Part shown: positions 31,084-56,596 of the stretch, piece after piece | Layout: each line of letters opens with the position of its first letter | How positions within the stretch are numbered: position 1 is the stretch's first letter | From: an uncultured Eubacterium sp. | Lineage (GTDB): Bacteria; Bacillota; Clostridia; Lachnospirales; Lachnospiraceae | Assembly (NCBI GenBank): GCA_948470065.1 | Contig: CAOKNO010000007.1 | Location: 1 to 58,993, forward strand | Direction of reading: 5' to 3' | DNA length: 58,993 nucleotides | Program-made: the position numbers and the translations under genes | The notes under the pieces: model-generated | What the model saw: only the letters and a program-made list of their open reading frames with translations | Database searches by the model: none | Told to the model about the DNA's origin: nothing

Positions 31084-31100
31084 ATAAACGCCCCCTCCCA

Positions 31101-32096: not shown

Positions 32097-32097
32097 T

Positions 32098-32802: not shown

Positions 32803-32826
32803 TCCTTCCAAAGCCTCCAGCGCTCT

Positions 32827-34158: not shown

Positions 34159-34244
34159 TCCCTCAAACAATCCCAAACCCTCCAATCTCTAACGATATTC
34201 CATTTCCCTAATTTCTCACCCAACCACTATTTCCTAGGATTCTC

Positions 34245-35030
34245 CTATTCCAGAGACGGCTCTACGCCCCACGGCGCGTCCCCCGCATTCCATAGCTTCT
34301 CCAGATAATCCCTGTCATGGATATTGTCCATCGGGGACCAGAACCCTTCGTGACGGTACGCCGCCATTTCCCCATCTGCTGCAAGACGCTCAAACGGCTC
34401 AGCTTCAAGCATCGTGCTTCCATCCCCAAGATACGGAAATACGCTTGGCTCCATGACCATAAACCCAATATTTACCCAAGGCTGATCCTTGCGCGCTTTC
34501 TCCTTAAAACCTGTGACCAGGCTCTTTGACTCATCCAGCCGCAGCGCGCCAAACCGCCCCTCTGGCTGGGTCGTTGAAATCGTAACTGTTTTCCCGCATT
34601 CCTTATGGAACTGGATCAGCTTGCAAATATCCACATCCGACACCCCGTCCCCATACGTCAGCAAAAACGGCTCCTCCCCAATATAATCCTTTATTTTTAA
34701 AATCCTGCCTGCCGTCAGCGTTTCTAACCCCGTATCCACCAAAGTAACCTTCCAGGTTTCAGGGCTTGGCGTCAGTACCTTTTGTTTCTCATCCCTTAAA
34801 TGGAACTCGATCTGGCTGTTATGCTGGTAATAATTCACAAAGTATTCTTTAATCATATGCCCTTTGTAGCCGCAGCATACGATAAATTCTTCAAACCCAA
34901 ACGCAGCGTACTGACGCATAATATGCCACAAAATAGGCCTGCCGCCGATTTCTACCATGGGCTTTGGACGGCTCTTAGATTCCTCACTAATCCGCGTGCC
35001 CTTCCCGCCTGCCAAAATCACTACCTTCAT
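34245..35030 (-). CDS. rfbF: Glucose-1-phosphate cytidylyltransferase
   Basis: 261 aa. MKVVILAGGKGTRISEESKS has the complete nucleotidyl loop GGxGTR. KPMVEIGGRPILWHIM, YGDGVSDVDICKLI and the C-terminal MDNIHDRDYLEKLW are as in DdhA/RfbF. It makes CDP-glucose from glucose-1-phosphate and CTP. The ATG overlaps the stop of rfbG by 4 bases. A second homologue with an altered loop is at 43768. Confidence 0.93.
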   Translation of the reverse strand: MKVVILAGGKGTRISEESKSRPKPMVEIGGRPILWHIMRQYAAFGFEEFIVCCGYKGHMIKEYFVNYYQHNSQIEFHLRDEKQKVLTPSPETWKVTLVDTGLETLTAGRILKIKDYIGEEPFLLTYGDGVSDVDICKLIQFHKECGKTVTISTTQPEGRFGALRLDESKSLVTGFKEKARKDQPWVNIGFMVMEPSVFPYLGDGSTMLEAEPFERLAADGEMAAYRHEGFWSPMDNIHDRDYLEKLWNAGDAPWGVEPSLE

Positions 35031-36073
35031 CGCTTGATAAACTCCTCAATCTGCTGCTCCATGCAAGCCCTGACGTCTCCGCCGTCCTGATAAACCTTCG
35101 CCCATTCTACCGTTTTTTCAACAGCCTTATGGATATCCCACTTCGGCGCCCAGCCAATGCGGCGTTTTATCCTCGCACAGTCCAGCTTTAAAAAGGAAGC
35201 TTCATGAGGCCCCGGATCACAGATATCCATCCAGGAAGCGCCTTTTCCCCAATATCTACAGAACAGATCCGTCAATTCCCCAACGGTGATACAGTCCTGT
35301 TCGTTTGGGCCAACATTGTAACATCCCTGCTTCTTTGGATCGGCAGCCTGCGCTTCCAAAATCATCAGGTACGCCCACAGCGGCTCTAACACATGCTGGA
35401 ATGGACGTATTGAAAAAGGGTTGCGCAGGATGATTTCCTGCCCCGCCAAAACAGCTCGGATACAGTCCGGAATAATCCGATCCTTTGCAAAATCACCGCC
35501 GCCGATTACATTCCCAGCACGCGCTGTAGAAATGGGAATCCCACTGGACTTGAAAAACGACTTTTGATAACTGTGCGTGACAAGCTCGGAACAAGATTTG
35601 CTGTTCGAATATGGATCGTACCCATCCAAAACATCCTCTTCACGGTATCCCCATTCCCATTCTTTATTTTCATAGACCTTGTCCGTTGTGACATTTAACA
35701 CAGATTCAACGCCTGGCATAGCCCGGATGCACTCTAAAACATTCACAGTGCCCATAACGTTCGTCGCATATGTGCCAACCGGATCTTCGTAGCTTTTACG
35801 TACAAGCGGCTGAGCCGCCATATGGAGCGCCAAGCTAGGGCGATACTGCTCAAATACAGATTTTAACGATTCCAAATCCCTAATATCGCCTTCTATGGAA
35901 ACCATACCCTGCCCTGCTTTAGACAATTGGAATAAATTTTCACCCTCCGGCGGCTGCAACGCATAGCCAATCACCTCAGCGCCCGCCATCTGAAGCATGA
36001 CGCTCAGCCAGCTTCCCTTAAAGCCGGTATGTCCCGTAATTAATATTCTTTTGCCTTTATAAAACTCTAACAT
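35027..36073 (-). CDS. rfbG: CDP-glucose 4,6-dehydratase
   Basis: 348 aa, extended SDR. The NAD loop is GHTGFKGSWLSVMLQMAGAE; the catalytic triad lies in NVTTDKVYENKEWEWGYRE (T, D, K) and DPYSNSKSCSELV (Y and K). It makes CDP-4-keto-6-deoxyglucose, the substrate of RfbH and possibly of the C-methyltransferase at 44541. It is the first gene after the promoter at 36309-36337. Confidence 0.93.
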   Translation of the reverse strand: MLEFYKGKRILITGHTGFKGSWLSVMLQMAGAEVIGYALQPPEGENLFQLSKAGQGMVSIEGDIRDLESLKSVFEQYRPSLALHMAAQPLVRKSYEDPVGTYATNVMGTVNVLECIRAMPGVESVLNVTTDKVYENKEWEWGYREEDVLDGYDPYSNSKSCSELVTHSYQKSFFKSSGIPISTARAGNVIGGGDFAKDRIIPDCIRAVLAGQEIILRNPFSIRPFQHVLEPLWAYLMILEAQAADPKKQGCYNVGPNEQDCITVGELTDLFCRYWGKGASWMDICDPGPHEASFLKLDCARIKRRIGWAPKWDIHKAVEKTVEWAKVYQDGGDVRACMEQQIEEFIKR

Positions 36074-36202
36074 AAAATCTTAAAGCCTCCTGCTCAATCC
36101 ATGTTACAGCCAGATCCTCCTAACCCTCGATCCCTACGGAACCGTACCATCCAGACTGCTACAATCCTTGCCATCCTGGCAAGAAGTTACATTTCTTTAT
36201 GC

Positions 36203-36290
36203 TTTTCCCTACCGCGGCATTCGCCAAATATCCGCGCGAGCGCGGCTGCATGGCTAAGCGCCCTAGGAGTGCATTGCTCGCGGGAATAAA
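36203..36290. repeat. Palindromic intergenic element, copy B
   Basis: Ends TTTTCCCTACCGCGG and TTGCTCGCGGGAATAAAA match those of the element at 26257-26368. The central part contains CCGCGCGAGCGCGG and GGCTAAGCGCCC pairs. It lies in the leader of the rfbG operon between promoter and start, so its transcript would form a strong stem-loop. Confidence 0.65.
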
Positions 36291-36308
36291 AAACATCTAC
36301 TGCCCACA

Positions 36309-36337
36309 AATATAGCATATTCATATTTCAGGTTCAA
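36309..36337 (-). promoter_or_regulatory. Promoter of the rfbG-rfbF-rfbH-neuD-neuB-neuC-neuA operon
   Basis: On the minus strand TTGAAC (36332-36337), 17-base spacer, TGCTATATT extended -10 (core 36309-36314). The leader is about 230 bases long and includes the palindromic element and a CTTGCCA/TGGCAAG hairpin at 36167-36183. Confidence 0.65.
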
Positions 36338-36413
36338 GTATTTTACCATTTTCTATTGACAAAACGGGGTTTTTCCGAAAGAATAGAATTATCTATTGAT
36401 ACCATAACATTTG

Positions 36414-36555
36414 TAGGCGATTGCAAAACTCCCTTTCTAGAAACAGCGGATGTACAATCTGTACAAAAAAGAGCGACTTGCGACGGCGTCTGGAGCCCGC
36501 TTTTGTATGGATTGTACATCCGCGTCTGTCCCAGAGAGGGTTTCGCAATTACCTA
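36414..36555 (+). mobile_element. MITE-like element, copy B
   Basis: 142 bp. Ends TAGGCGATTGCAAAACTCCC and, complemented, TAGGTAATTGCGAAACCC. Perfect 10-bp target duplication ATAACATTTG at 36404-36413 and 36556-36565. The interior has a 13-bp perfect stem GCGGATGTACAAT (36446-36458) / ATTGTACATCCGC (36511-36523). No protein is encoded. Confidence 0.85.
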
Positions 36556-36586
36556 ATAACATTTGAACGGAAAGGAACACCATACG

Positions 36587-37096
36587 ATGCTACATCCAGA
36601 TAATGTCTATCAAGAAGCAAAACGCAAAGAAGATGAAAATTACAAATTCCGCACTTACCTGAAAATGCATGCAGATGAAATGGAACTAGATCGGCAGTTC
36701 CAGCGCCTACACCGGGAATTGTTCGCTGATTATGACTGCAGCCAATGCCGCAACTGCTGCAAACAGTACTATGGAATTATCCCAGAAGAAGATATTGAGA
36801 AAGACGCCGCGCACTTAGGGATTTCCACAGAACAGTTCATTGACTTCTTCCTGAAAAAAGAACGCGTCGGACTTGATTACCATACGAAACACAAGCCCTG
36901 CGACTTCTTATTGGAAGATGGGTCTTGCAAACTCGGGGACTGCAAGCCAGATGATTGCAAGAACTATCCCTATACCGAGCAGCCGGAACAGTTATGGAGC
37001 CTTCTCAGTGTTCTAGAAGCCGTAGAAGTCTGCCCGGTCGCCTTTGAGATTTACGAACGGTTGAAAGAGGAATATCGTTTCCGTGGGAAACGTTAA
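36587..37096 (+). CDS. YkgJ-family cysteine cluster protein
   Basis: 169 aa from ATG 36587, site AAAGGAAC 8 bases before. Cysteine motif CSQCRNCCKQYYGIIPEED, then CDFLLEDGSCKLGDCKPDDC with further cysteines and VCPVAFEIY at the end. This is the zinc- or Fe-S-binding domain of the YkgJ family, function unproven. It is the only plus-strand gene between the two sugar blocks and is adjacent to a broken Uma2 gene that overlaps its last codons. Confidence 0.85.
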   Translation: MLHPDNVYQEAKRKEDENYKFRTYLKMHADEMELDRQFQRLHRELFADYDCSQCRNCCKQYYGIIPEEDIEKDAAHLGISTEQFIDFFLKKERVGLDYHTKHKPCDFLLEDGSCKLGDCKPDDCKNYPYTEQPEQLWSLLSVLEAVEVCPVAFEIYERLKEEYRFRGKR

Positions 37097-37605
37097 ACGC
37101 ATTTACGCAAGAAAAAATCATATAATGGATGATATCTACAATTTGCTGGAAGGCAGCAGAATAGAACTGGTTAACGGGCATCCATCCAGGATGCCTCCAC
37201 CCAACCGCAAGCATTCGGAAATTACAGGGGCGCTCTTTAGAACCATCTGGGAATATTTCCAGAAGAAACGGACTATGCAGACCTTACATCGCCCCATTTG
37301 CGTTATTCTTAAATACAGATAATACAAACTACGTCGATCCTGATATCTGTACCATATGCGACAAAAGCAAGCTTACAGACAAAGGCTGTTTGGACGCACC
37401 AGACTGGATCATAGAAATTGTTTCACCCAGCAGCAAGCGGATAGGCTATTATATAAATATGTTTAAATACCATACTGCCGGGGTTCGGGAATATCGGTTC
37501 GATGATCCAGACAAACACCTCGTCCTTGTTTATAATTTTGAATCAGATTGCACCGACGGTTATACTTTTTCCGACTCTGTAAAAGCTAGCATCTATGACG
37601 ATTAG
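37083..37605 (+). pseudogene. Uma2/DUF820-family endonuclease, frameshifted
   Basis: The two open pieces 37083-37322 and 37390-37605 belong to one Uma2 protein. The first reads LLEGSRIELVNGHPSRMPPP. Near 37285 the frame changes: the other frame continues YIAPFALFLNTDNTNYVDPD, ICTICDKSKLTDKGC and then joins LDAPDWIIEIVSPSSKR of the second piece. PD-(D/E)XK residues D and E-x-V are retained. One single-base change would restore it. It may be a pseudogene, a recent mutation or a sequencing error. Confidence 0.75.
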
Positions 37606-37903
37606 CATATCCATTTTTCCAACATTGCAAAACTGCTGTAATATCCAAATCCAAAAAGGATTAGATAAAACCTGATAAAACAGAAAAATAAAGGCGCAAT
37701 AGGTGTACATAGCCATATAAATAACATCCCGATACTTCCCTCCAACCTTCCCTGTTCCATTTAGGGAATTTTATTCATGATCATAGAGGTTTCACAATCG
37801 CAGACGTTCCTAGTTGATTAAAATCGACCTGCTTTCTATCATTGCATCATTTTTATTTCAAGAACATAGGATAGTAACTCTTATCTCACACATTGCTTCT
37901 TGT
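37606..37903. other. Boundary between GC-richer and AT-rich blocks
   Basis: No gene, RNA or strong hairpin is visible. The base composition by eye becomes AT-rich from here to the right. A weak resemblance to the MITE ends near 37790 is not convincing. Confidence 0.45.
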
Positions 37904-38542
37904 TTAGCTTTTCCTTACTATAATAGTAAAATCATATAATTTATAATCATGCAATAACGCTACATTATTTGAAAAATTTTGTTTACAGTAGTCAAACAGA
38001 AATAACGGATCAGAATAATATAAATCTTCACTTTTTTTATCCGGATCAGAATAACTTGTCAATGCATTAAAAGCAAATCCTTTTTTGCTGTTTTTGTCAA
38101 ATTTTTGAATCGTATTCAACATAAAAAGGTTGAAATCACTTGTCGAAATTCCCATTTTCAAATTAAAAATTCCACTTGATATTATATAGTCATAAGTCTC
38201 ATTGATTTCTGTACTATGTAGAAATTTAAAATATTTATTATTTTCTCCATAAATTGACTTTGCAGCTTCTATCATAGAAATAGAACTATCTATTCCAACA
38301 TATGTTCCCTTCCAATTTAGGAAATACTCCTTTAGATAAGAAAGGAAATATCCATATCCACAGCCATAATCACAAATTGAAAAATTGCTTTTTTTCGTTT
38401 CTACTAATTTTATCAATTGGTCATAGCGTACTTTTTGTGCCTCTTCCCCATTCCATCTTACTCCTGCATAATTAGCGCCAAATTCCTTAACCGTCTGACC
38501 AAAATATTTTTCTGTTTTATCGAATAGTTCCTGTTCTTTCAT
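37904..38542 (-). CDS. Class I SAM-dependent methyltransferase
   Basis: 212 aa. Motif I FSICDYGCGYGYFLSYL and a following acidic residue (VGIDSSISMIEAAKS) bind SAM. The rest fits a small-molecule methyltransferase. It is the last gene of the AT-rich block, 49 bases downstream of the WbqC gene. With WecE and WbqC it may finish an aminodeoxysugar, for example by N- or O-methylation, but the substrate is unknown. Confidence 0.8.
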   Translation of the reverse strand: MKEQELFDKTEKYFGQTVKEFGANYAGVRWNGEEAQKVRYDQLIKLVETKKSNFSICDYGCGYGYFLSYLKEYFLNWKGTYVGIDSSISMIEAAKSIYGENNKYFKFLHSTEINETYDYIISSGIFNLKMGISTSDFNLFMLNTIQKFDKNSKKGFAFNALTSYSDPDKKSEDLYYSDPLFLFDYCKQNFSNNVALLHDYKLYDFTIIVRKS

Positions 38543-38591
38543 AATTTATTTACCTTTCATTTCCGGTTTTGTATTGTATACTAAAATCTTG

Positions 38592-39293
38592 TTATTCAAA
38601 GGAAAAACTTTTCATATATTCTTGGGTTTGATTCCCAAGATGGAATAACATATCTAGAATTGTGACTTCGTGTACAAATTGCCCATACATTTGTGGATAT
38701 TCAGGATAATTAGAATAATCCATATATGTTAAGGTTATATTGTCTAATTCAAAGAGTTTTTCGACAATATAATTTGAAGCTGCAGGTCCAGAAATGTATT
38801 CTTTCGCTTGCGCCTGCTTGCAGATACTCACTAAGCGTTCCGTCTTTCCAGATTCAAGAATATACTCTGAAGACCAAGAAATTTTTGTTTTTATTCCCAA
38901 AATATCGCAAATGGATTTTATAAAAATATAATTTACCTGGCTCAAGTACTTTTCTTCTTTTCCCCTACGATATAGTTCTTGGATATGTGAATAATATTCT
39001 TCAAAGTAAGGTGCTTTGGAATAATTACATTGAAGAGCCCTCCAATGTTTTTCTGCCCATTTTGATGTAATAATTTCCGTTTCTTTAATCTTCTGATGCA
39101 CTCTGCCTTTATGCAATACAGGAATGCTTAACCATTGAGTACCTTGTAGAGTTTTTATTTTATTTCGATTTCTCCAATCATTCGTTGTGTACTGGACATC
39201 ATCATATAGAATAAATTCATCCACCATATTTATTAAATCAAAATACCCTTTCCAGGGAATATAATTAGATTGCAAAATTGCTACTTTTTTCAT
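38592..39293 (-). CDS. WbqC-family protein
   Basis: 233 aa. Start KKVAILQSNYIPWKGYFDLI, then DEFILYDDVQYTTNDWRNRN, and conserved IYYDS-type and YISGPAASNYI segments are typical of the WbqC family found in O-antigen clusters. The biochemical role is not settled; a frequent association with 4-amino-6-deoxysugar genes suggests acyl or aminoacyl transfer. Here it lies between a WecE homologue and a methyltransferase. Confidence 0.85.
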   Translation of the reverse strand: MKKVAILQSNYIPWKGYFDLINMVDEFILYDDVQYTTNDWRNRNKIKTLQGTQWLSIPVLHKGRVHQKIKETEIITSKWAEKHWRALQCNYSKAPYFEEYYSHIQELYRRGKEEKYLSQVNYIFIKSICDILGIKTKISWSSEYILESGKTERLVSICKQAQAKEYISGPAASNYIVEKLFELDNITLTYMDYSNYPEYPQMYGQFVHEVTILDMLFHLGNQTQEYMKSFSFE

Positions 39294-39525
39294 AAACTTT
39301 CCTCACTTTTTGCTTGCCTGCTCTAATCTATTTTTAGAGTATAAATAATAGATGAACCCTTCCTAATATAGTTAATAGCTTTCAACCATTTTTCATGGTA
39401 CTCTTTTGTAAATACTTACTGGCATATAAATTTCCCCCTTCTAAAAGTTGGTTGAACCATCAGATCCTAGCGCCCTTATCCTTACTCTTAATAAACTCTA
39501 AGACTACTTTTTACCTTCCATCATA

Positions 39526-40659
39526 CTACCTTCCAGCATAGAAGTTCCGTATTTTATCTGCCACATATACAACCTCGTCTTCTTTTAATGCATAAAACAT
39601 TGGCAGCCGCACCAGACGTTCGCTTTCCTTTGTCGTGTACCTATCCTCTCCTACAAATTCCCCATATCTCCTGCCTGCTGCAGATGAATGCAAAGGTACA
39701 TAGTGAAACACTGCTTTTATTCCCATCTCTGCCATATATTGTATTAACTCTGTACGCTCTTCTAAATTCTTCGTTTTTATATAATACATATGGGCATTAT
39801 GTTGACATTCCTCTGGGATATAAGGCAATTCAACCTTCCCTGCATCTTTCAGAGATTTTAATTCCCGATCATAGCAGTTCCACAATCTCAGACGCTTTTG
39901 ATTAATTTCTTCTGCAATCTCTAGCTGCGCTAATAGGTAAGCCGCATTCATTTCACTCGGCAAATAGGAAGAACCCATATCTACCCAACTATACTTATCC
40001 ACTTCGCCACGGAAAAATTCTGTACGGTTCGTTCCTTTTTCCCGGATGATTTCTGCCCTCTTCACATACTCCTGGTTGTTAATTAAAATCAGCCCGCCCT
40101 CTCCCATTGTATAATTTTTCGTTTCATGAAAGCTGTATGTACCAAAATCCCCAATCGTTCCTAAATCCCTTCCTTTATAAGTAGCCATCATGCCTTGCGC
40201 CGCATCTTCCACCACTGAAATATTATAATCATTTGCAATTTGCAAGATCTTATCCATCTCGCAGCTTACTCCGGCATAATGCACTGGAACAATGACCTTA
40301 GTTCGCTCTGTGATCGCATCTATCAACAACGTTTCATCCATATTCATGGTATCCTTCCGGATATCAATAAACTTTATCTTCGCACCGCGAAGCGCAAAGG
40401 CATCTGCTGTAGACACAAATGTAAAAGAAGGCATAATAACCTCGTCGCCTGGCTGAATCTCCAACAATAAAGCTGCCATCTCTAAAGCATGGGTACAGGA
40501 TGTTGTAAGCAGGACTTTCGTATTTAATTTCTCTTCAAACCATTTCGTACATTCCCTCGTAAACGGTCCGTCGCCATTTAATCGTTTATTCTTCAGAATT
40601 GCCTCTGAAATATATCCGATTCCTTTTTGTGTATACACAGGTTCATTGAATGCTAACAT
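39526..40659 (-). CDS. NDP-4-keto-6-deoxyhexose aminotransferase (WecE/RffA-like)
   Basis: 377 aa, DegT/DnrJ/EryC1 fold. The PLP lysine is kept (FGTYSFHETKNYTMGEGG) and is followed by the WecE-type sequence with SSYLPSEMNAAYLLAQLE. It transfers an amino group to C4 of dTDP-4-keto-6-deoxyglucose to give a dTDP-4-amino-4,6-dideoxygalactose. The 232-base gap downstream of it is unusual within this otherwise tight operon and may hold a promoter for wbqC. Confidence 0.88.
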   Translation of the reverse strand: MLAFNEPVYTQKGIGYISEAILKNKRLNGDGPFTRECTKWFEEKLNTKVLLTTSCTHALEMAALLLEIQPGDEVIMPSFTFVSTADAFALRGAKIKFIDIRKDTMNMDETLLIDAITERTKVIVPVHYAGVSCEMDKILQIANDYNISVVEDAAQGMMATYKGRDLGTIGDFGTYSFHETKNYTMGEGGLILINNQEYVKRAEIIREKGTNRTEFFRGEVDKYSWVDMGSSYLPSEMNAAYLLAQLEIAEEINQKRLRLWNCYDRELKSLKDAGKVELPYIPEECQHNAHMYYIKTKNLEERTELIQYMAEMGIKAVFHYVPLHSSAAGRRYGEFVGEDRYTTKESERLVRLPMFYALKEDEVVYVADKIRNFYAGR

Positions 40660-40679
40660 TGTCTTGGCTCCTGTTTCTC

Positions 40680-42215
40680 TTATTTTTCAATAATATCAAT
40701 GATGCCCTCCAACATTTCAGTTACAAAACGATGTAATTTTTTCTCTGTATTTTCCTTCTTGTACGTTTCTGCACATTTTTTCTTGGCGTTATAAAACTTA
40801 GAATCTGTAGCGTAACGGCAAACGGTATGCAGCATTTCTTCATAATCCTGAACAATAAAATCCTCTCCACAATTATATGCCACATCACAATCTGGCAATG
40901 TTACAACGGGGAGCCCTGCAATCAATGCCATTGCGCTGCTGAAGCCGCCTCCTTTCCGCTCAAGGTTCAGATATAAATCCATTACGCCATATACTCCTAT
41001 TAATTCTTTACAATATCCAAGATAAAATATGCGTCCATTAAAAACTTCATTTTTAAAATACTCCTTTACACCTTCACTATTTCCAATAATAGCAAACGAT
41101 ATTTTCGGTATTTTATCTAACATCCGTTTCATTTCAGATACAAATCTATCATTAAACTCCGACTGCAAACGATTTCCCACAATAGCAATCAGAAATTGCC
41201 CTTCTGGAAGATTTAATTCTGAACGTGTATAACTTTTCGAAACTGTCTCAGGAATTACCGGGAACCTCTCTTTCATAAAGAGTTGAACTTGGTTTTTGCC
41301 TAACATTTCTTCATATCCTTGTTCTGTTGCGTCATCCTCTTTTCCAAGCCGGATTAAAATTTCTCCTTCTGAAATTGGGCATTCCACCGACATTCTCATA
41401 GACACAAGCGTCGTGTATGTGCCTATAAGTTCAACTATCGGATTAATTGTGCCACAATTCAGCACAAACAGTGGATTCCATGCATGGATAAAGGAAAGCA
41501 TCATACCATATTCCTTCCATCGTAATTCGCCCATATTGATTTGAAATCCTTTAAAAACTGTATCCTGGTATGCAATGGCCGCCATCTTATCCCTATAATA
41601 ATCAACTGTAACTTCACGAACCAGTCCATGCCAAAGTGCCAGGTCTACTTCCCGCCAATCACAAGGACATATATAAAAGAACACTTCATATCCCAAATGC
41701 TCTTGTAAGGTATACGCCATATTTAGTATCATTTTTGTAGGAGCATTCTCCAAACTCACAATTTGTCCAGCAATTATTACAATACGTTTTTTATTCCGTT
41801 TCTGTGGTGGTAAGAAAGGATATTCCATTTCTGATAACTTCTGTGAGAATTTTTCTATATTTTTCCTACGAAAAATCCGTTTTCTCTTATATTCACCTAC
41901 TACAAAAGACATTGCTTGATACTCTAACATAGCCCTTGTATCACAATCAAAATCACTCATTATCAAACAGTCCATTAAATTTTTGCGAAATTCCTTACCT
42001 TCTGTATATCTGATCAAAACAGAAAATACATAGATCAGATCATTGATTTCAAATTCTTCTTTCATTAGAACCATGATTTCTCTTTGTATTTGAGGTGAAT
42101 ATGCGTAATACTGAGATTCTAACTCAATAAATTGCCTTCTTTTCTCATTTTCAGTTTCAAATGAAGCCATGCACAATTGAACCGCTGTCTTAACCCACTC
42201 AATTTTCGTTCCCAT
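40680..42215 (-). CDS. GT-B glycosyltransferase
   Basis: 511 aa. A helical N-terminal region (1-140) precedes two Rossmann-like domains. Donor-site features: FLIAIVGNRLQSEFNDRFVS, FAIIGNSEGVKEYF, IFYLGYCKELIGVYGVMDLY and RKGGGFSSAMALIAGLPVVT. The C-terminal half resembles GT4/GT41-like enzymes. It probably adds a sugar to the flagellin glycan or to flagellin itself. It follows another glycosyltransferase with a 10-base gap. Confidence 0.8.
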   Translation of the reverse strand: MGTKIEWVKTAVQLCMASFETENEKRRQFIELESQYYAYSPQIQREIMVLMKEEFEINDLIYVFSVLIRYTEGKEFRKNLMDCLIMSDFDCDTRAMLEYQAMSFVVGEYKRKRIFRRKNIEKFSQKLSEMEYPFLPPQKRNKKRIVIIAGQIVSLENAPTKMILNMAYTLQEHLGYEVFFYICPCDWREVDLALWHGLVREVTVDYYRDKMAAIAYQDTVFKGFQINMGELRWKEYGMMLSFIHAWNPLFVLNCGTINPIVELIGTYTTLVSMRMSVECPISEGEILIRLGKEDDATEQGYEEMLGKNQVQLFMKERFPVIPETVSKSYTRSELNLPEGQFLIAIVGNRLQSEFNDRFVSEMKRMLDKIPKISFAIIGNSEGVKEYFKNEVFNGRIFYLGYCKELIGVYGVMDLYLNLERKGGGFSSAMALIAGLPVVTLPDCDVAYNCGEDFIVQDYEEMLHTVCRYATDSKFYNAKKKCAETYKKENTEKKLHRFVTEMLEGIIDIIEK

Positions 42216-42225
42216 TCTAGCCCTC

Positions 42226-43743: not shown

Positions 43744-43767
43744 CTCTTCCTTCCCTTTTTATAAACA

Positions 43768-44544
43768 TCATGTTTCCCAAATTCTCCAGGGCGCATTTCC
43801 AGTTTTCCACATACTTTCTAACAACGTTTTATCGCGCACTGTTTCCATTGGCGTCCAAAACCCAAAATGGCAATACGCTGACACTTCATCGTTTGCTGAA
43901 AGCATACGTAGCATTTTCTCCCCCATTAAAGAATTGGCATCTGCTAAATATTGGAATATCTCTGGTTCAAACACCATACTACAGGCATTTACCCAGGGAG
44001 TCCTCCCATTATCAAGTGTTGCAAAAATATCAATTTCCCCTTTTTCATCAATTGGAAGTATCTTATTCCGTCCCGTCGGATATGCAACGGCAAAGGTTGC
44101 AATCCTTCTTTGGTTCTTATGCTGCTTTACCATCTTTAAGATATTAATATCAGAAACACAATCCCCATAAGTTACAAGAAATGTCTCTTCTTGAAGCATA
44201 TCCTTGATACGTAGTATCCGTTCGGATACGGAAGAATGAAGCCCTGTATCCACTACCATTACATTCCAGTCCTCTGTCTTCTTCCTGTGGATTTCTACGT
44301 GGTTTGTCTGCAAATCTACCGTAATATCCGACTGATATATGTAAAAGTTTGTGAAATAATCCTTAATCATCTCACCTTTATAACCCGTGCAAATCACAAA
44401 CTCCTTGTAGCCATAATGCGCATACTGTTTCATAATATGCCATAAAATCGGTCTTCCACCAATATCTGCCATGGGCTTCGGAATTTTCTCATCTTCTTCC
44501 ATTAATGTGCTTGGCAACCCACCTGCCAGAATAACTACTTTCAT
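43768..44544 (-). CDS. Divergent RfbF-like sugar nucleotidyltransferase
   Basis: 258 aa, homologous to rfbF (34245) along its length (KPMADIGGRPILWHIMKQY, TYGDCVSDINIL, FWTPMETVRDK). The nucleotide loop GGKGTR is replaced by GGLPSTL, so the invariant arginine and the second glycine are missing. The aspartate in TYGDCVSD stays. It could be active with another sugar-phosphate or nucleotide, or it may have become a noncatalytic partner. Coupled to the C-methyltransferase by a 4-base overlap. Confidence 0.85.
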   Translation of the reverse strand: MKVVILAGGLPSTLMEEDEKIPKPMADIGGRPILWHIMKQYAHYGYKEFVICTGYKGEMIKDYFTNFYIYQSDITVDLQTNHVEIHRKKTEDWNVMVVDTGLHSSVSERILRIKDMLQEETFLVTYGDCVSDINILKMVKQHKNQRRIATFAVAYPTGRNKILPIDEKGEIDIFATLDNGRTPWVNACSMVFEPEIFQYLADANSLMGEKMLRMLSANDEVSAYCHFGFWTPMETVRDKTLLESMWKTGNAPWRIWET

Positions 44545-45683: not shown

Positions 45684-45700
45684 TCTTCTTACCCTCCGTA

Positions 45701-46570
45701 TCAGTAATCCCCTTCTAAACAATATGGCGTCGTTTTATAATATTCGATTAACTCTGCAATTGCCTGTTCCATGGGCGTAAATTCAAATGTCCCCATTTCC
45801 TCCAACCATCTTCGATTGCTCCCAGTATATTCCCGGTTCCATCCTGGTATTTCAATCTCAACTTCACATTTATTCCCAACCTGATTAACAATTTCTCTGG
45901 CAAGAGAAACAATATCCTGCGGTTTGCCTGTGCAAACATTATAACAACGCCTTTTCAGCTTATGTTCCACAAACCATGGAATTGCCCGGCAAAAATCTTT
46001 AATATACAAGTAATCAAACACTACATTTTGATGAATCACAATCTTATTTTTTAACAGAGCCTTACAAATGATGTTTGAAATAAACCTGTAATTATAATTC
46101 TCATAAGGTCCAAAAATGCCAAATAACCGCAAGTTGTAAATATTATTACTGTTTAATATTGTCTTTGACATAATATATTTAGAAAAACCATAATCGTCAC
46201 CTGGGATTACTGTATCAAACGCTTCCTCATCTACAAGGGACAATTCACATTCCTTACCATATTCCGCACCAGAACCTAACACTATTAATTTTCCATACGC
46301 AGCATGGCATCGTTCCAGATGAAAGAACATGCTTAAATTATTCTTTAATAGCGCCTGCTCGTACTCCTTCCCCCTCCCAAGAGTCCCCTGCGTCGCGGCA
46401 TGAATCACTACATCGATATCTTCTTTCTGGAACAATTTTTCCACTTGCCTTTGATCCAACAAATCTGCTTCTTTCCGTGAAATAGCTACCACGTTATATT
46501 CTGTATCCAGATATTCTGCCAGGTTTCGTCCAATAAACCCATTTGCCCCTGTAATTAGAATCTTTTTCAT
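45701..46570 (-). CDS. NAD-dependent epimerase/reductase (extended SDR)
   Basis: 289 aa. KKILITGANGFIGRNLAEYL binds NAD(P), and the catalytic tyrosine and lysine lie in DDYGFSKYIMSKTI. It is shorter than a 4,6-dehydratase and lacks the dehydratase TxD motif, so it probably reduces or epimerizes a 4-keto sugar. It follows the methyltransferase in pathway order. It could be the ketoreductase of a branched deoxysugar. Confidence 0.85.
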   Translation of the reverse strand: MKKILITGANGFIGRNLAEYLDTEYNVVAISRKEADLLDQRQVEKLFQKEDIDVVIHAATQGTLGRGKEYEQALLKNNLSMFFHLERCHAAYGKLIVLGSGAEYGKECELSLVDEEAFDTVIPGDDYGFSKYIMSKTILNSNNIYNLRLFGIFGPYENYNYRFISNIICKALLKNKIVIHQNVVFDYLYIKDFCRAIPWFVEHKLKRRCYNVCTGKPQDIVSLAREIVNQVGNKCEVEIEIPGWNREYTGSNRRWLEEMGTFEFTPMEQAIAELIEYYKTTPYCLEGDY

Positions 46571-46572
46571 AT

Positions 46573-47598
46573 TTACCTCAGACGCTCCACTGGAAATCCA
46601 TCAATGTTATCCCTTGTATAATAATCGTTATGCACCAACTCACAATTCCTACAGCTTGGGTTCTCATGTTTCCTGTTTTCTAACTGCATTTTCCGGAACT
46701 GGTACATATTCTCCCCATTCCAAATGTCCTTTATATTTTCCTGTAAGATATTCCCAAGGTTGGTTCCTCCAACCCAATCCACACAACAAGGGCTGACTGC
46801 GCCATCACTCCGGATCGCCAATGTAGTGAATGGCATCGGGCACGCAATCCTGTCGGACATCGTTTCTTTTAAATCCCGCTTTAAGGATTCCTCCTGCTCC
46901 TTTTTATACAAACTCCCAATAAAACTTTTTTCCTCATGAGCCACCCAATTGTGAGGTTTATCAATATATACTTCATCCGCAACAGCTGAAAATTTATCTA
47001 TAAACTCCTGGTTTTCCTCTGTAAATGTATCCAGCATCTTAGCGCTTACAAACGGCTTGTCCACGCCCTTCGCCTGTTTCAACCGCTGTATCTGCGCAAG
47101 ATTCTGGTATATCTCCTCAATATTAGCCTGCTCTGTATTCGTAATTTCCTCATACCGTTCCTGGTTTGCGCCATAAATAGAAACACGGATATAATCTATC
47201 CCATAGGCAACCAGCTTTTCAGCAACTTCCTCCGTAATCAAAGATGCATTTGTCGTCGTTTCTATCCGTTCTGCAATATCCGCCTCTTTCGCAATACGCA
47301 GCATTTCACAAAATTCTGGATGGATAAACGGCTCTCCATATAAACTCAGTTTTAATACTTTAAGTTTCTGCCCCGCCCAAGAACAGAACTGCTTTATAAT
47401 TTCCTGATACAATTCCATACTCATTAATCCTCTGTGTTCCTTTAAATAATTATCACATTGAATGCTCTGGAAACACTGGACGCATTTAAAATTACAATAA
47501 TTAGACGGCTCGATTAAAAGTGTAAACGGTTTTTGCAAAGGAATCACATCTATCAAATTTTGCCTTTTGTGGTTCTTTAATTCTGTATATTTGATCAT
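46573..47598 (-). CDS. Radical SAM/SPASM enzyme 1
   Basis: 341 aa from ATG 47598 with GAGGATATTGATC in front. The CX3CX2C motif is C35-N-F-K-C39-V-Q-C42. A C-terminal SPASM-type region has CPMPFTTLAIRSDG, SPCC, and CRNCEL. Such enzymes use extra Fe-S clusters for radical chemistry on peptides, sugars or cofactors. The substrate is unknown here. It lies between a FkbM methyltransferase and an SDR in a flagellin glycosylation operon, which is not a usual place for this class. Confidence 0.88.
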   Translation of the reverse strand: MIKYTELKNHKRQNLIDVIPLQKPFTLLIEPSNYCNFKCVQCFQSIQCDNYLKEHRGLMSMELYQEIIKQFCSWAGQKLKVLKLSLYGEPFIHPEFCEMLRIAKEADIAERIETTTNASLITEEVAEKLVAYGIDYIRVSIYGANQERYEEITNTEQANIEEIYQNLAQIQRLKQAKGVDKPFVSAKMLDTFTEENQEFIDKFSAVADEVYIDKPHNWVAHEEKSFIGSLYKKEQEESLKRDLKETMSDRIACPMPFTTLAIRSDGAVSPCCVDWVGGTNLGNILQENIKDIWNGENMYQFRKMQLENRKHENPSCRNCELVHNDYYTRDNIDGFPVERLR

Positions 47599-47621
47599 GA
47601 TCAATATCCTCAATTTATGAA

Positions 47622-48725
47622 CTATTCCGGAACATAAGCATACAGTTTTTTCCATTGATGCTTTATCACATATTCTGGTTCTATCTCTCTTAAAATGCCT
47701 TCCAATACTTCCGTATCATCTGGTAGATGGTACGTGCAAATAGAAAGTCTAGGATGAAAACGCTTAATCGTATCACTCGCTCCCCATAACATATTTCTTT
47801 CCGAGCCTTCTATATCAGCTTTTATATAATCTACACGTTCTAGGTTTTCCTTCTGTACAAATTGATCAATTGTTGTCACATTAACATTATATTCTTTATC
47901 AATTATGTTATTGTTTTCTAATAACGATGCTCCGATCAGATCATTATTCTGCACATGGAATACAGCTTTTCCTTCCTTGTCTGCCAACGCATATGGGCAT
48001 ATTTTTATATGTTCAGGAAATAACTCTCTCACTTCCTCTAAGTAACGTATTGCATCTGGCATAGGCTCAAATGCATAGCACATACATCCTTTCTGCGCAC
48101 CAATTGCAGAAAACAAGCCAATATTAGCCCCGCAATCTAACACAATATCTTTCTCTTTTAACTCAGTATGCTCTCGTTCATAGGAGCCTTCATCAATCCT
48201 ACTATAATCATTACATATTACAGGCAGAATCAAATCCCCTGCTTCGTATAGCCATGAAAGCAGATAATCATCCGGTCTGCAAAAAGGATTTAAAAATTGA
48301 TACCCATTTAAATCAAGGACGCCCTTCAAGCAATCTACTTGTCTTTTTTTGAAATAATCCAGATAATACGCTGCCTCAATCAATGTAATGTCCTTCGGAT
48401 AAGTAATAGGATAAACTCTTGTAAAAATATTCTGTAGCCTTTCATTTAATTGACCATCTTGATCCCGCAAGGCTACGAAGATATTTGCTTCCGTCTTGAT
48501 ATTTTCCATTTCGATAAGGGAAAATACAGGAATGCCTTCTTCTGTTTCAGTCTTTTTGCCCGTAACTACAAAACCTGAAACTTGAAATCCAAGCGCACAT
48601 ACTGCACACAGAAACTTTCTTCCCATCCATCCGCAGCCAAATATATAATTTGGTTTATCATTTCTTAAGACTTCCAGTAGTTCCTTTACCTGTAACTCAA
48701 TTGTATCCGCATTTCTACTTTCCAT
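47622..48725 (-). CDS. FkbM-family methyltransferase with N-terminal Rossmann-like domain
   Basis: 367 aa. The N-terminal part (YIFGCGWMGRKFLCAVCALG, then VVTGKKTETEEGIPVF) resembles a dinucleotide-binding domain. The FkbM domain follows: LDCGANIGLFSAIGAQKGC for SAM, and YIKADIEGSERNMLWGA with the conserved DIEG. FkbM enzymes O-methylate sugars or polyketides. It ends 24 bases before radical SAM enzyme 1. Confidence 0.85.
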   Translation of the reverse strand: MESRNADTIELQVKELLEVLRNDKPNYIFGCGWMGRKFLCAVCALGFQVSGFVVTGKKTETEEGIPVFSLIEMENIKTEANIFVALRDQDGQLNERLQNIFTRVYPITYPKDITLIEAAYYLDYFKKRQVDCLKGVLDLNGYQFLNPFCRPDDYLLSWLYEAGDLILPVICNDYSRIDEGSYEREHTELKEKDIVLDCGANIGLFSAIGAQKGCMCYAFEPMPDAIRYLEEVRELFPEHIKICPYALADKEGKAVFHVQNNDLIGASLLENNNIIDKEYNVNVTTIDQFVQKENLERVDYIKADIEGSERNMLWGASDTIKRFHPRLSICTYHLPDDTEVLEGILREIEPEYVIKHQWKKLYAYVPE

Positions 48726-48728
48726 AAA

Positions 48729-49988
48729 TCACCTTACCACTCCATCGATAAAATCTTCTTCTGAAAATGCTTCTTTGTAACTAATAGGCAATGGCTTTCC
48801 ATAGAATTTTGACATATATTCACGAATAAATCTCTTATTTTCCCCTGACAAACATAAACTATTCTTCTCTTTGAACCATTTAATCCTATTCCCACGTTCA
48901 ATAATATCTGCCAATGGCTCTTCAAAAATATTTCCAATTGCAATGTGTATAAACACACATGGAAGAACGTCCCCATATTTCGTAATGTGAAGATTCCTGT
49001 TAACACATCCACATTCCGCTTTTTTTCCATACGTTGGAAACGTATCCCTATGGACTTCTGGATACTTATTCCGTAAGTCAATCAAAAACTTATTGTCTTC
49101 AGGTGTAATTAAGACTTCTTCTTTCCCTTCCCACTCTCCGATTGCGCGGGCAATAAGGATATCAAGGTTAAAATTATTGTCATGTGCAAATTCAGCCAGC
49201 TTCTCTGTATCCTCAGAAATACAATTCTGATGGCTCATTACACTCTGTATCGTAGCCTGCAAGCCAGCTTCTCTGGCATGAAACAACGCCTGTATCGCCT
49301 TTTGATAAACAGCCTCCCCTTTCACCTGCCGCGTTTGATTGTATACTTCTGGATTAATACTATCTACACTGATACGAATTTTATCTATGCCGATTGATTT
49401 TAAATGCTCTGCTTTTTCCTTCGTTAATAATAAACCGTTTGAACTCATAGAAATATGGAACTTCTCTGGATTAATTGCTTTTACAATATCATCTAAATCT
49501 GGAAATACAAGCGGCTCTCCGCCTGATATATTAAACTGCGCAAGACCTAACTCATCTGCCTGCCTGGCAATATCAGCAATATCCTCTACCGTCATCTCCC
49601 TTTCCTTTTTTGCAAAAGATAAATTACAACAATGGGAACAATGCATATTACATTTATAATCATAACAAAAATCAATGATTGCCGTTGACTCACCTTTTTC
49701 TTCTTTTTCATCATATTTAATTATTTTTTCATATACCAAGGGCTTTTCTTTCTTTAATTTTTCCCTTCTAGCATGTTCAATTGGCTTTCGGGATTGTTCA
49801 TTAATTTCTTCCATTTGCTTTCCTCCGCTTAAATTATATTTAAAATGCTGCGACCAATATACTATTACATTAGATTTTTGCTTTGTTCTATATATACATT
49901 TTTTCTTCGTTAACTTTCTTTTTACAATTCCATGATACAGTTTTTTCTTTTTATCTATCAATTCCACAATATAATCTATTGTAGACAT
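48729..49988 (-). CDS. Radical SAM enzyme 2 with SPASM-like end
   Basis: 419 aa from ATG 49988 (AGAGAGGATT). A shorter start at 49814 has a perfect GGAGG; the 58 intervening residues are basic and stop-free, so I keep the long form. CX3CX2C is C113-N-M-H-C117-S-H-C120. GGEPLVFPDL and SMSSNGLLLT follow. C-terminal CGCVNRNLHITKYGDVLPC supplies extra cluster ligands. Reaction unknown. Downstream it is 3 bases from the first FkbM gene. Confidence 0.85.
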   Translation of the reverse strand: MSTIDYIVELIDKKKKLYHGIVKRKLTKKKCIYRTKQKSNVIVYWSQHFKYNLSGGKQMEEINEQSRKPIEHARREKLKKEKPLVYEKIIKYDEKEEKGESTAIIDFCYDYKCNMHCSHCCNLSFAKKEREMTVEDIADIARQADELGLAQFNISGGEPLVFPDLDDIVKAINPEKFHISMSSNGLLLTKEKAEHLKSIGIDKIRISVDSINPEVYNQTRQVKGEAVYQKAIQALFHAREAGLQATIQSVMSHQNCISEDTEKLAEFAHDNNFNLDILIARAIGEWEGKEEVLITPEDNKFLIDLRNKYPEVHRDTFPTYGKKAECGCVNRNLHITKYGDVLPCVFIHIAIGNIFEEPLADIIERGNRIKWFKEKNSLCLSGENKRFIREYMSKFYGKPLPISYKEAFSEEDFIDGVVR

Positions 49989-50108
49989 AATCCTCTCTTT
50001 ATAGCTACATCGCTCCAAAATAAAGATTATTTTATTCTCCAATCCAAAAGAAGAATTATTATTCTAAAAAACCATTAATCTAATGCCAAAAACATCAAAT
50101 GCTATCCC

Positions 50109-51176
50109 TCATGAAATTGTCGCATAACAAACCGTTTCTAGCATCATATCTGTATAATGGCGGATATATATCTTATATTCTGGTACAAGTTCCTTTATAT
50201 ATCTTGGAATTTCAAACATATCTTCTGGACTGTGATAAATACAAATCGCTAATTTCGGTTTCTGCGTTCTTATAATATCTGATGCTCCAACTAATGCCGG
50301 CATTTCAGAGCCTTCTATATCCATCTTAATAAAAGTAACTTTTTCATTGCGAAGAATATCATCCATCTTCCGGACATTGCCACATGTATCAAACGATTCC
50401 CCTATAGAAGAACTGCTATCTCCACTCAAAAATCTAACCTCTTTGTTCTCATCCGCCAAACCATATGGATAGCAAATTATTTTTTCCTTTTTTACTTTAC
50501 CCTCTCTAAAATTACTAATATTCTTTTCCAACTTTTGATATATTTCAGCATCCAATTCAAACAAATGCATTTTTTCATACTTATTATCGCAAAATTTCAG
50601 GTATTTTTCAGCCGTATCTCCAACATACGCGCCCACATCAACAAAAACTTCATCTATATCTCGTATTATAATCTGAGAATCAAAATACTGTTCTTTTTCA
50701 TATATAATTTCAAAATAATCATCTGGTATATCCTGCATCTTCCAGGCATTTATTAGATGCCTGAAAACTTCCTTAGACCTTTCATCTTCGAATATTCCCA
50801 TTATTTCATTTACATAGTTGTCCAAGTTTTCTCCATTTTTTTCTAAAAACTTATCCGTTAAATACTTTTCAGGAAAAATTCTTAAGATATTTTTAACTCC
50901 ATGTCCTTCTAAATCTCGTTTAATCTCTCTGTAATATAATGATTCTACTATTACTATTAATTGGTCTTGATCCATTTTAACCAACTGTTCTTTTGGAACA
51001 CATTCCTTCCCCTTATATTCCGTACCCCATAACGCTGGATTGCTATCCGAAAAGAAATCTATCTCAATACCATAGGCTTTTATTTTATCCATTGTAGCTT
51101 TTGCTGCAATTCCCATAGGATACAAGCATATTTTTTTATTAAAAATCTTTTCCTTAACCACATCTATATATCCCAT
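50109..51176 (-). CDS. FkbM-family methyltransferase with N-terminal domain
   Basis: 355 aa. The N-terminal half (KICLYPMGIAAKATMDKIKA, DFFSDSNPALWGTEYKGKEC) is an unusual Rossmann-like domain like the one in the other FkbM protein. The FkbM core has VFVDVGAYVGDTAEKYLKFC and FIKMDIEGSEMPALVGA. It is probably a sugar O-methyltransferase. It is 19 bases downstream of the ThDP enzyme. Confidence 0.85.
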   Translation of the reverse strand: MGYIDVVKEKIFNKKICLYPMGIAAKATMDKIKAYGIEIDFFSDSNPALWGTEYKGKECVPKEQLVKMDQDQLIVIVESLYYREIKRDLEGHGVKNILRIFPEKYLTDKFLEKNGENLDNYVNEIMGIFEDERSKEVFRHLINAWKMQDIPDDYFEIIYEKEQYFDSQIIIRDIDEVFVDVGAYVGDTAEKYLKFCDNKYEKMHLFELDAEIYQKLEKNISNFREGKVKKEKIICYPYGLADENKEVRFLSGDSSSSIGESFDTCGNVRKMDDILRNEKVTFIKMDIEGSEMPALVGASDIIRTQKPKLAICIYHSPEDMFEIPRYIKELVPEYKIYIRHYTDMMLETVCYATIS

Positions 51177-51194
51177 AACAACTCCTTTTTAAAT

Positions 51195-52961
51195 TTATTC
51201 AACCCTAGGCCACATCTCCTCTAATAAGGATGATTTCATACTTCCATCTGGAAGGCGGTAGCTTTTCGTCCTTGGCGAAACAGTTTCATCTGGAGATATC
51301 AATAATTCACATAATACAACTCCAGGATATCCTAAGATCTCTGGCACAACCTGTTCCATTTCTTCATTATTCTTTGCAAGAAAGACAGGAATCCCATACG
51401 CTTCCGCAACCTTACGGATATCAGGCATTTTTAAACCGCTGGATTCCTCACTGGCAACAAGCCTTCCATCAAAAGTGTTCTTCTGCATGGCACGAATACT
51501 TGCATATCCTTCATTATTCCAAATAAATATCTTAATGGGCAAATCTAAACGTCGCAGCGTTTCTAACTCTTGTATATTCATCTGAAATGCTCCATCCCCA
51601 TTAATGAGTACCGTCCGTTTTTGATGATTTGCCAAACACGCGCCAATTGCATAAGGTAAACCAAATCCCATAGAACCTAGTCCCGCAGCATTTTTCATCT
51701 TCTGCCCTTTTTTTACCCGAAACGCCTGATATGTAATTTCCCCAGCAGAGCCAGAACTTTCTGGTACAATAATATCTTCTGGTGTAAGGTTTTTACATAA
51801 AACATCTATAAAGTAATAAGCGCTTACTTTATCCTGCACTTGAACATGTTTTTTTGTCACAACTGGATATTTTTCCCTCAAGCCGTGGCATTCCGCTAAC
51901 CATTCTTTCCATTTTTTCTTCTGCTGTTCCCATATTCCAGATTTTACCGATTGCAACAATTTTTCTAGAAAAACCTTTGCATCACAAGCAACTTTATCTT
52001 CTATATGCCGTACCTTCATCCGATTTAATTCATTGGCATCAATATCAACAATAATTTTCTTGGCGTTTTTACCAAAATTACTTTCATTAAATGCAGTCAA
52101 GCTTGTGTCTAATCTACTTCCAATCGAAATCAAAACATCTGCTTTTTGTAAGATAAGATTGGCTCCTCTGTCCCCCATTGCCCCAGGATGCCCTACATAC
52201 AACCTATCGTCTTCCCCAAACATATCAATGGTTTTCCATGTTGTTTGGACTGGGATAGGCAAAATATTCAATATTTCATAGAAAATATCTTGTGCATTCG
52301 CAAGCTTGATACCATTTCCAGCTAATACCAACGGCTGATTCGAATTTTTTAAGAGTTCTAATGTTTTTTCAATTGCTTTGTCAATGTCTTGTGTTGCATC
52401 CAGTAAGGACTCTGTTTCATAGCCATGTAACGTTGTTTCATCTATAATTGCAGATTGTACATCCAGTGGAATAGAAAGCCAAACAGGTCCTGGCCTTCCA
52501 GTAGTTGCTTCCACATATGCCCGCTCTAAATGGTAACGGATTTCCTCTGGTGCTAAAATCTGAACTGCATATTTCGTAATGGGCTTCACCATATCCACAA
52601 TCTGTACCTCTTGCGATCCTATCTGGCGCACTCCCGTACCCCCTACTAAATCTGACCGTTTTGCTTGCCCTGAAAGGATAAACATCGGTGTGGAATCAAT
52701 CCACCCTGCCGTTACTCCAGTAATCGCATTCGTAGCTCCAGGGCCAGAAGTCGTCAAAGCAACCCCAATATTATTTGTATGCTGCCCATATGCTTCTGCT
52801 GCAATCGCAGCCGCCTGCTCATGTAGGCAACAAACATATTCTATCCCAGACGTTCCCAAAGAATCCACCAAATGCATTGCTCCACCACCTGGAAGCATAA
52901 AAACATGAGAAATTCCTTTTCCTTTTAAAAATTGAAAAATATAATCTGACACTTTGATCAT
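51195..52961 (-). CDS. ThDP-dependent acetolactate-synthase-like enzyme
   Basis: 588 aa with all three ThDP-fold domains. The catalytic glutamate is E48 in CLHEQAAAIAAEAY, and the pyrophosphate site has NGDGAFQMNIQELETLRRLD...WNNEGY. It resembles acetolactate synthase large subunit, but no ilvN small subunit or ilvC/ilvD lies nearby. Its neighbours are sugar genes. The family includes YerE and AviB1, which add an acetyl-derived two-carbon unit to a keto sugar to make a branched sugar. I infer that role; a true branched-chain amino acid function is not excluded. Confidence 0.8.
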   Translation of the reverse strand: MIKVSDYIFQFLKGKGISHVFMLPGGGAMHLVDSLGTSGIEYVCCLHEQAAAIAAEAYGQHTNNIGVALTTSGPGATNAITGVTAGWIDSTPMFILSGQAKRSDLVGGTGVRQIGSQEVQIVDMVKPITKYAVQILAPEEIRYHLERAYVEATTGRPGPVWLSIPLDVQSAIIDETTLHGYETESLLDATQDIDKAIEKTLELLKNSNQPLVLAGNGIKLANAQDIFYEILNILPIPVQTTWKTIDMFGEDDRLYVGHPGAMGDRGANLILQKADVLISIGSRLDTSLTAFNESNFGKNAKKIIVDIDANELNRMKVRHIEDKVACDAKVFLEKLLQSVKSGIWEQQKKKWKEWLAECHGLREKYPVVTKKHVQVQDKVSAYYFIDVLCKNLTPEDIIVPESSGSAGEITYQAFRVKKGQKMKNAAGLGSMGFGLPYAIGACLANHQKRTVLINGDGAFQMNIQELETLRRLDLPIKIFIWNNEGYASIRAMQKNTFDGRLVASEESSGLKMPDIRKVAEAYGIPVFLAKNNEEMEQVVPEILGYPGVVLCELLISPDETVSPRTKSYRLPDGSMKSSLLEEMWPRVE

Positions 52962-54848: not shown

Positions 54849-54890
54849 ATTCATCTCCTTTTTCATATAAAGTATATTTCAATATAATAA

Positions 54891-56573: not shown

Positions 56574-56596
56574 AATTGTTCCTCCTACTTTACAAA

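Follow-up and report, generated by a model that had tools for sequence, protein, structure and literature searches.

We studied a contig of 58,993 bases (CAOKNO010000007.1 in assembly GCA_948470065.1; here called the window) from an uncultured Eubacterium sp. of the family Lachnospiraceae. The window encodes a YerE-like carboligase of the thiamine diphosphate (ThDP) type, together with the cytidine diphosphate (CDP)-sugar enzymes RfbF, RfbG, and RfbH. A preliminary description of this DNA had proposed that the carboligase uses pyruvate to build a yersiniose-like sugar with a two-carbon branch for flagellin. Missing from that proposal were the two genes that lie immediately upstream of the one for the ThDP enzyme and encode a NeuB-type synthase (NeuB2) and a fused HAD-GmhA protein. 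We consider it reasonably probable that these neighbors supply the donor of the YerE-like enzyme, such that an ulosonic acid made by NeuB2 would be joined to the product of RfbF, RfbG, and RfbH, yielding a sugar of the caryophyllose/erwiniose class. The donor is probably not pyruvate. The window holds 93 open reading frames (ORFs) of at least 100 amino acids, 39 of which were profiled with Pfam. The genes that bear most directly on the pathway are listed here.

54024..54866, minus strand: NeuB2, a short NeuB-type synthase of 280 amino acids with the NeuB domain only (PF03102, 250 bits).
52958..54022, minus strand: fusion of a KdsC-like HAD phosphatase domain with a GmhA-like isomerase domain, 354 amino acids (PF13580 and HAD families).
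51195..52961, minus strand: YerE-like ThDP carboligase, 588 amino acids (JanthE, 8rph, 367.7 bits; pocket S116, M262, S287, F291).
45701..46570, minus strand: extended short-chain dehydrogenase/reductase (SDR) that may reduce the new ketone (PF01370, 121.7 bits).
35027..36073, minus strand: RfbG, CDP-glucose 4,6-dehydratase (TIGR02622, 439.9 bits; cut-off, 278.45).
34245..35030, minus strand: RfbF, glucose-1-phosphate cytidylyltransferase (TIGR02623, 354.3 bits; cut-off, 300.25).
32827..34185, minus strand: RfbH, CDP-4-keto-6-deoxyglucose 3-dehydrase (NF011936, 699.6 bits; cut-off, 423), with histidine at the site of the pyridoxal phosphate (PLP) lysine.

We compared the window with two sets of loci. 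The first (n = 26; the clade) comprised the window, 23 relatives found by scanning contigs with the ThDP protein, and two additions from the same genus. The relatives were chosen through short peptides of the window's ThDP protein, which favored close ones, and 11 of the 33 matches of the search behind the two additions were not fetched with flanks. Hosts in the clade belong to the Bacillota, apart from two Lentisphaerota and one member of the Actinomycetota (Olsenella). L069 was excluded because its contig is the same as that of L050; L140 to L143 and L145 repeat the contigs of L064, L053, L051, L057, and L066; and the loci include near-copies (L049/L057, L062/L063, L073/L074, and L079/L080). 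The sequence of L060 spans only 3,970 bases. The second set (n = 18) held other YerE-like loci, namely, L070 to L086 and a paralogue from the window's own genome on contig C12 (L016).

The gene neighborhood is kept throughout the clade. A NeuB-family gene lies at most three ORFs from the ThDP gene in 26/26 loci, and a KdsC-like HAD gene is also near it in 26/26, with the GmhA fusion in 22. Identity of the clade NeuB proteins to NeuB2 of the window is 62 to 78% in the fetched loci and 37% in the Olsenella locus (L061), which falls within the clade and carries a different NeuB and a different HAD (33%) at the same site. Automatic ORF calling missed the NeuB2 of one further locus, L118, which homology searches recovered. 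Among the positions of NeuB2 aligned to catalytic residues of Neisseria NeuB, eight are conserved in 27/27 rows and two more in 26/27; no C-terminal SAF domain was matched by Pfam in NeuB2. The DxDG motif of the HAD domain is present in 25 of the 26 clade rows, and the ORF of the other (L055) begins within the domain. The top PDB matches of the GmhA domain are phosphoheptose isomerases, with conserved motifs. We infer that the HAD domain, the GmhA domain, and NeuB2 resemble KdsC/KDN-9-phosphatase, phosphoheptose isomerase, and NeuB, respectively, in how they work, without membership in the curated families.

The association also held when we searched from the upstream genes. HAD-GmhA as a query against 150 genera of the family gave three matches, and a YerE-like gene lies no more than 5 kb from each. 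NeuB2 as a query against 397 genomes of the family gave 12 matches at 67% identity or more and four at 49 to 50%. Of the 12 close matches, nine lie no more than about 6 kb from a YerE-like gene, two have a CMP (cytidine monophosphate)-sugar synthetase instead, and one is truncated at a contig end. The fetched flanks of the four more distant matches showed neither HAD-GmhA nor a ThDP relative; one of these matches, L151, has a PseF-like gene together with a HAD at 32%.

Other YerE-like loci have a different neighbor. NeuB2 was found in none of the 18. Islands of this kind commonly contain NeuB genes of some sort: in L070, a NeuB-family gene at 28% identity adjoins a PseF-like gene, and the flanks of L016, L072, L079, and L080 include NeuB genes of the sialic or Pse type. 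None of these is NeuB2. Using BLAST in the loci and Pfam in the window, we searched for aldolases of the PF00682 (DmpG) type, which produce 4-hydroxy-2-oxo acids. Such an aldolase lies at most five ORFs from the ThDP gene in 10/18 other YerE-like loci (six by Pfam and four by BLAST), accompanied in three of the 10 (L072, L079, and L080) by a DmpF-type acetaldehyde dehydrogenase. Transketolase halves are present in L084 and L085; neither an aldolase nor a transketolase was found in L016, L077, L081, L082, L083, or L086. In contrast, BLAST found no PF00682-type aldolase in the 25 fetched clade loci, and Pfam found none among the profiled ORFs of the window. Donors of the 4-hydroxy-2-oxo acid type are preferred by ErwE (PMC12247030). 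A maker of 2-keto acids thus seems often to be the neighbor of a YerE-like gene, a role that NeuB2 and the HAD protein would take in the clade. These genomic observations argue against the pyruvate donor of the preliminary description.

The ThDP protein itself contains all three ThDP domains (Pfam). As the preliminary description had stated, its cofactor site and catalytic glutamate are intact, with E48 in 26/26 clade rows, GDG at 455, and NN in FIWNNEG. Its top PDB match over 585 residues is 8rph, which is JanthE, a YerE-like enzyme (PMC12188165); acetolactate synthase II (5ahk) is second at 256.3 bits. A quick tree built from 52 proteins recovered the 26 clade rows as a single clade (support, 99). 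JanthE, the only characterized YerE-like member available, joins the window protein and its relatives on a long branch (support, 99). Outside this grouping are 5ahk, L043, and the two other full-length acetolactate synthase-like paralogues of the genome; acetolactate synthase II and L043 also have long branches. A second tree without L041 to L043 recovered a 22-row group around the window (support, 98). The preliminary description would have been refuted had the protein grouped with anabolic acetolactate synthases; it falls beside JanthE and away from the synthases. By sequence, it is YerE-like and not an anabolic acetolactate synthase.

The putative pocket distinguishes the clade further. Residues V121, Y268, P293, Y297, and K567 are important in the active site of JanthE (PMC12188165). 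At the counterparts of the first four, proteins of the clade have Ser, Met, and Ser (26/26) and Phe (25/26). The same sites are variable in other YerE-like proteins, and the three acetolactate synthase rows show F, Y/H, R, and either A or a gap. A clade-wide pocket unlike that of either group fits a common non-pyruvate donor.

The acceptor would come from the Rfb enzymes. All three were named in the preliminary description, including an RfbH with histidine for the PLP lysine, and all three are present and score above their NCBIfam cut-offs; RfbH lies just beyond the span first described (34245-52961). Residues 14 to 450 of RfbH align with 3bcx, a solved CDP-6-deoxy-hexulose 3-dehydrase, with histidine in both at the PLP-lysine site, where 3bb8 has lysine. 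Cysteines at chain positions 193, 251, 253, and 261 are conserved in the alignment with 3bcx and are presumably ligands of an iron-sulfur cluster. Together, RfbF, RfbG, and RfbH are a plausible source of a CDP-4-keto-3,6-dideoxyglucose acceptor. A DegT enzyme at 39526-40659 was rejected as a candidate RfbH, since it retains the lysine and scores 610 bits with the WecE model (cut-off, 435).

From sequence and gene context, we propose the following reactions. The GmhA-like domain would isomerize a ketose phosphate, with sedoheptulose 7-phosphate as the likeliest substrate, to an aldose phosphate. NeuB2 would condense the aldose phosphate with phosphoenolpyruvate (PEP) to a phosphorylated 3-deoxy-2-ulosonic acid, which would have 10 carbons if the aldose is a heptose, and the KdsC-like HAD domain would take off the phosphate. 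The ThDP enzyme would then decarboxylate the 2-keto acid and add the resulting polyhydroxyacyl carbanion to C4 of CDP-4-keto-3,6-dideoxyglucose, after which an SDR would reduce the new ketone. The product would be a CDP-3,6-dideoxyhexose carrying an extended polyol branch on C4; in this organism, a Maf protein would perhaps transfer it to flagellin. The SDR at 45701, which the preliminary description had named as the final ketoreductase, is a possible candidate for that step; relatives at 40 to 50% identity occur in 8/25 clade loci. Caryophyllose is 4-C-(1,3,4,5-tetrahydroxyhexyl)-3,6-dideoxyhexose (PMC5706390), so C4 branches of the 2-keto-3-deoxy acid pattern do exist. Chain length is the least certain step, as a C10 acid depends on the GmhA domain acting on sedoheptulose 7-phosphate. 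The fully specified version, in which a C10 acid from heptose 7-phosphate and PEP provides a nine-carbon acyl donor for a fifteen-carbon C4-branched 3,6-dideoxy sugar carried on flagellin here and on other surface glycans elsewhere, is tentative, and we regard it as rather doubtful.

Several observations weigh against a NeuB2-made donor joined to the RfbF/G/H product. Many of the loci are akin, so that the locus counts are not independent, and the Fisher values computed from counts disregard this kinship. None of the upstream domains reaches the cut-off of a curated family: the HAD domain scores 97.6 bits with KDN-9-phosphatase (NF058599; cut-off, 180) and 96.2 bits with KdsC (TIGR01670; cut-off, 106.95), the GmhA domain scores 165.4 bits with TIGR00441 (cut-off, 209.45), and NeuB2 scores 266.3 bits with N-acetylneuraminate synthase (TIGR03569; cut-off, 399.65). 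The HAD protein lacks the GmhA fusion in L059, L061, L062, and L063; NeuB2 of L059 has only 217 amino acids; and L058, a clade member, additionally holds transketolase halves. L118 and L120 encode ThDP proteins that are 42 to 45% identical and have N, V, A, and Y in the pocket. In the window, the RfbF, RfbG, and RfbH genes are about 15 kb away from the ThDP gene. No convincing RfbI-type reductase, an enzyme that the preliminary description had reported absent from the window, turned up in a PF00175 search of this 85.5%-complete genome, where the only two matches (about 22 bits each) were not taken as RfbI; related dehydrases are reported to operate with general reductases. Further points of this kind favor particular alternatives and are given with them.

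Foremost among these alternatives, the ThDP enzyme could take pyruvate and build a yersiniose-like two-carbon branch, with NeuB2 and HAD-GmhA supplying the same glycan with an unrelated ulosonic acid that is CMP activated by an enzyme encoded elsewhere. YerE itself takes pyruvate (PMC12247030), and a clear match to the CMP-sugar synthetase family PF02348 is present somewhere in 18 of the 28 genomes with the NeuB/HAD/ThDP module. In two loci, moreover, a CMP-sugar synthetase adjoins NeuB2, with HAD and GmhA genes nearby (L144:8384-11042 and L147:8821-13636), which indicates that the NeuB2 product can be CMP activated. No ThDP gene was seen at either locus in the fetched 19 kb, the stretch to which that search was limited, and these two loci perhaps make a CMP-activated ulosonic acid from a heptose phosphate. 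On the other side, no PF02348 match (E value up to 1e-4) was found in four module genomes (G062, G076, G083, and G179), and only 23.7 to 31.5 bits, putatively cross-hits, in four more (G064, G077, G078, and G081), although genomes may be incomplete. A single strong match, putatively KdsB, is present in each of G079 and G080. Only for some of the genomes, then, does this survey tell against CMP activation. The nearly constant NeuB/HAD/ThDP neighborhood, the aldolases that other YerE-like clades have at this position, and the fixed pocket of the clade argue against pyruvate, and we judge this alternative unlikely. In a tree with modest support, the NeuB2 proteins of L144 and L147 nest among those of ThDP-type loci, and the SDR and TIM-barrel genes of L147 resemble, by eye, those of L146, L118, and L120. 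We read this nesting and the shared gene sets as a single supply line of ulosonic acid with two fates.

Alternatively, the NeuB2-derived acid could be used with an acceptor other than the RfbF/G/H product, such as an aldehyde or a different keto sugar, or could simply be decarboxylated to a 2-deoxy aldose. JanthE accepts many ketones (PMC12188165), and adjacency of the module to RfbF, RfbG, and RfbH is not seen in every locus. RfbG is above its cut-off in 25/28 module genomes but was not found in G073, G077, or G081, and RfbH is below its cut-off in 2 of the 26 clade genomes (G077 and G083), which have one fragment plus matches under the cut-off. Nevertheless, RfbH exceeds the cut-off in 24/26 clade genomes versus 56/150 genera of the family, and RfbF, RfbG, and RfbH immediately adjoin the module in L051, L061, L062, and L063. 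We find this alternative improbable. That an ordinary acetolactate synthase lies by chance in a glycan region has hardly any probability left: biosynthetic acetolactate synthase (TIGR00118) is the best NCBIfam model at 375.4 bits, but its cut-off of 538.35 is not reached, JanthE scores above every acetolactate synthase in the PDB list, the tree places the protein elsewhere, and the genome has its two other acetolactate synthase-like genes, one of which (on C4) precedes a 173-amino-acid ORF that resembles IlvN by eye.

The window has further genes that may act on the sugar or its target, as well as others of separate function.

56597..58510, minus strand: Maf-type flagellin glycosyltransferase (PF01973, 124 bits; PF20157, 33 bits), with a 63% relative in L067.
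54891..56600, minus strand: GT2-type glycosyltransferase between the Maf and NeuB2 genes (PF00535, 32.6 bits), with a 47% relative in L067.
46573..51176, minus strand: two radical SAM/SPASM genes and two FkbM methyltransferase genes between the SDR and ThDP genes, candidate tailoring enzymes (Pfam).
43768..44544, minus strand: RfbF2, a paralogue of RfbF (TIGR02623, 297.0 bits; cut-off, 300.25), with the loop GGLPST.
29214-32811: a separate sialic-acid-like set, with NeuD (160.6 bits; cut-off, 160.8), NeuB1 and NeuC above their cut-offs, and a PseF-like CMP synthetase.

As the preliminary description had noted, no IlvC, IlvD, or acetohydroxyacid synthase small-subunit domain (IlvN) was found among the 39 ORFs profiled, and those at 3357-28891 look like housekeeping genes or have no assigned role. 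Similar sets of radical SAM/SPASM and FkbM genes occur in L044, L063, and L068. The nucleotide-binding loop of RfbF2 lacks GTR (GGxxST/S) in all seven rows with a visible N terminus (the window, L016, L046, L048, L050, L053, and L054), and GTR or GSR is kept in 21/21 rows of RfbF1. RfbF2 is possibly an inactive or regulatory subunit.

The window had also been described as a flagellin glycosylation region. The Maf and GT2 genes at the contig end fit this description; no flagellin was found in the window, all eight flagellin matches of the genome being on other contigs. In a sister species (G010; L067), flagellin is upstream of the gene series Maf-GT2-NeuB2-HAD/GmhA-ThDP, and a Maf relative is downstream of flagellin. 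Flagellin is a plausible target here. It is not a general one, since 21 of the 26 clade genomes have flagellin matches and none was found for L051, L056, L061, L062, and L063, and we rejected a flagellin-specific pathway as a general claim. Flagellin or Maf genes appear in the fetched flanks of 4/28 module loci (L047, L057, L067, and L146) versus 8/18 other YerE-like loci. Three of the latter (L072, L079, and L080) carry a YerE-like gene, RfbF/G/H, the DmpG aldolase, and the DmpF dehydrogenase next to flagellin and Maf genes, from which an erwiniose-like flagellin sugar is predicted. The paralogue on C12 (ThDP gene at 10782-12608; 39% identity) is a second YerE-like gene of the genome, in a separate island of flagellin, Maf, and pseudaminic acid genes, with PseB and PseI above their cut-offs.

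If a NeuB-made ulosonic acid is the carbanion donor, the chemistries of sialic-acid-type and branched sugars would meet in one pathway, a class of large sugars would be expected on gut bacteria, and ulosonic acids would gain a second fate besides CMP activation, namely, carbon-carbon coupling to another sugar nucleotide. We found no description of such coupling in the open-access PMC literature, covered mostly at the level of listings. The sugar structure is not known for the vast majority of the more than 200 predicted YerE-like enzymes (PMC12247030). We suggest as a rule that a donor-maker gene, whether a DmpG-type aldolase or a NeuB-type synthase, often lies near the YerE-like ThDP gene, so that the branch may be guessed from the neighborhood.

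The pathway can be set beside four known systems. It shares with the yersiniose A pathway of Yersinia pseudotuberculosis lipopolysaccharide a YerE-like ThDP enzyme and the RfbF/G/H route to CDP-4-keto-3,6-dideoxyglucose (PMC12247030). YerE takes pyruvate and makes a two-carbon branch, whereas here NeuB and HAD-GmhA suggest that the donor is a long ulosonic acid, and the search for RfbI gave no convincing match. ErwE (erwiniose) and MMAR_2332 (caryophyllose) are closer, as YerE-like enzymes that use longer hydroxylated 2-keto acid donors and place a polyol branch at C4 of a 3,6-dideoxyhexose (PMC12247030 and PMC5706390); the accessible text of those sources names no NeuB-type donor synthesis, whereas the donor here seems to be NeuB-made from PEP and a sugar phosphate. 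JanthE is the closest solved structure (PMC12188165). It differs in having CDG and a V/Y/P/Y pocket, compared to GDG in the window protein and S/M/S/F in the clade. Finally, the pathway to KDN (2-keto-3-deoxynononic acid) consists of NeuB and KDN-9-phosphate phosphatase, after which the acid is CMP activated. The likeness lies in the pairing of a NeuB-type synthase with a KdsC-like HAD that acts on a sugar phosphate; in contrast to KDN activation, the genes here stand alongside a ThDP gene and add a phosphoheptose isomerase domain.

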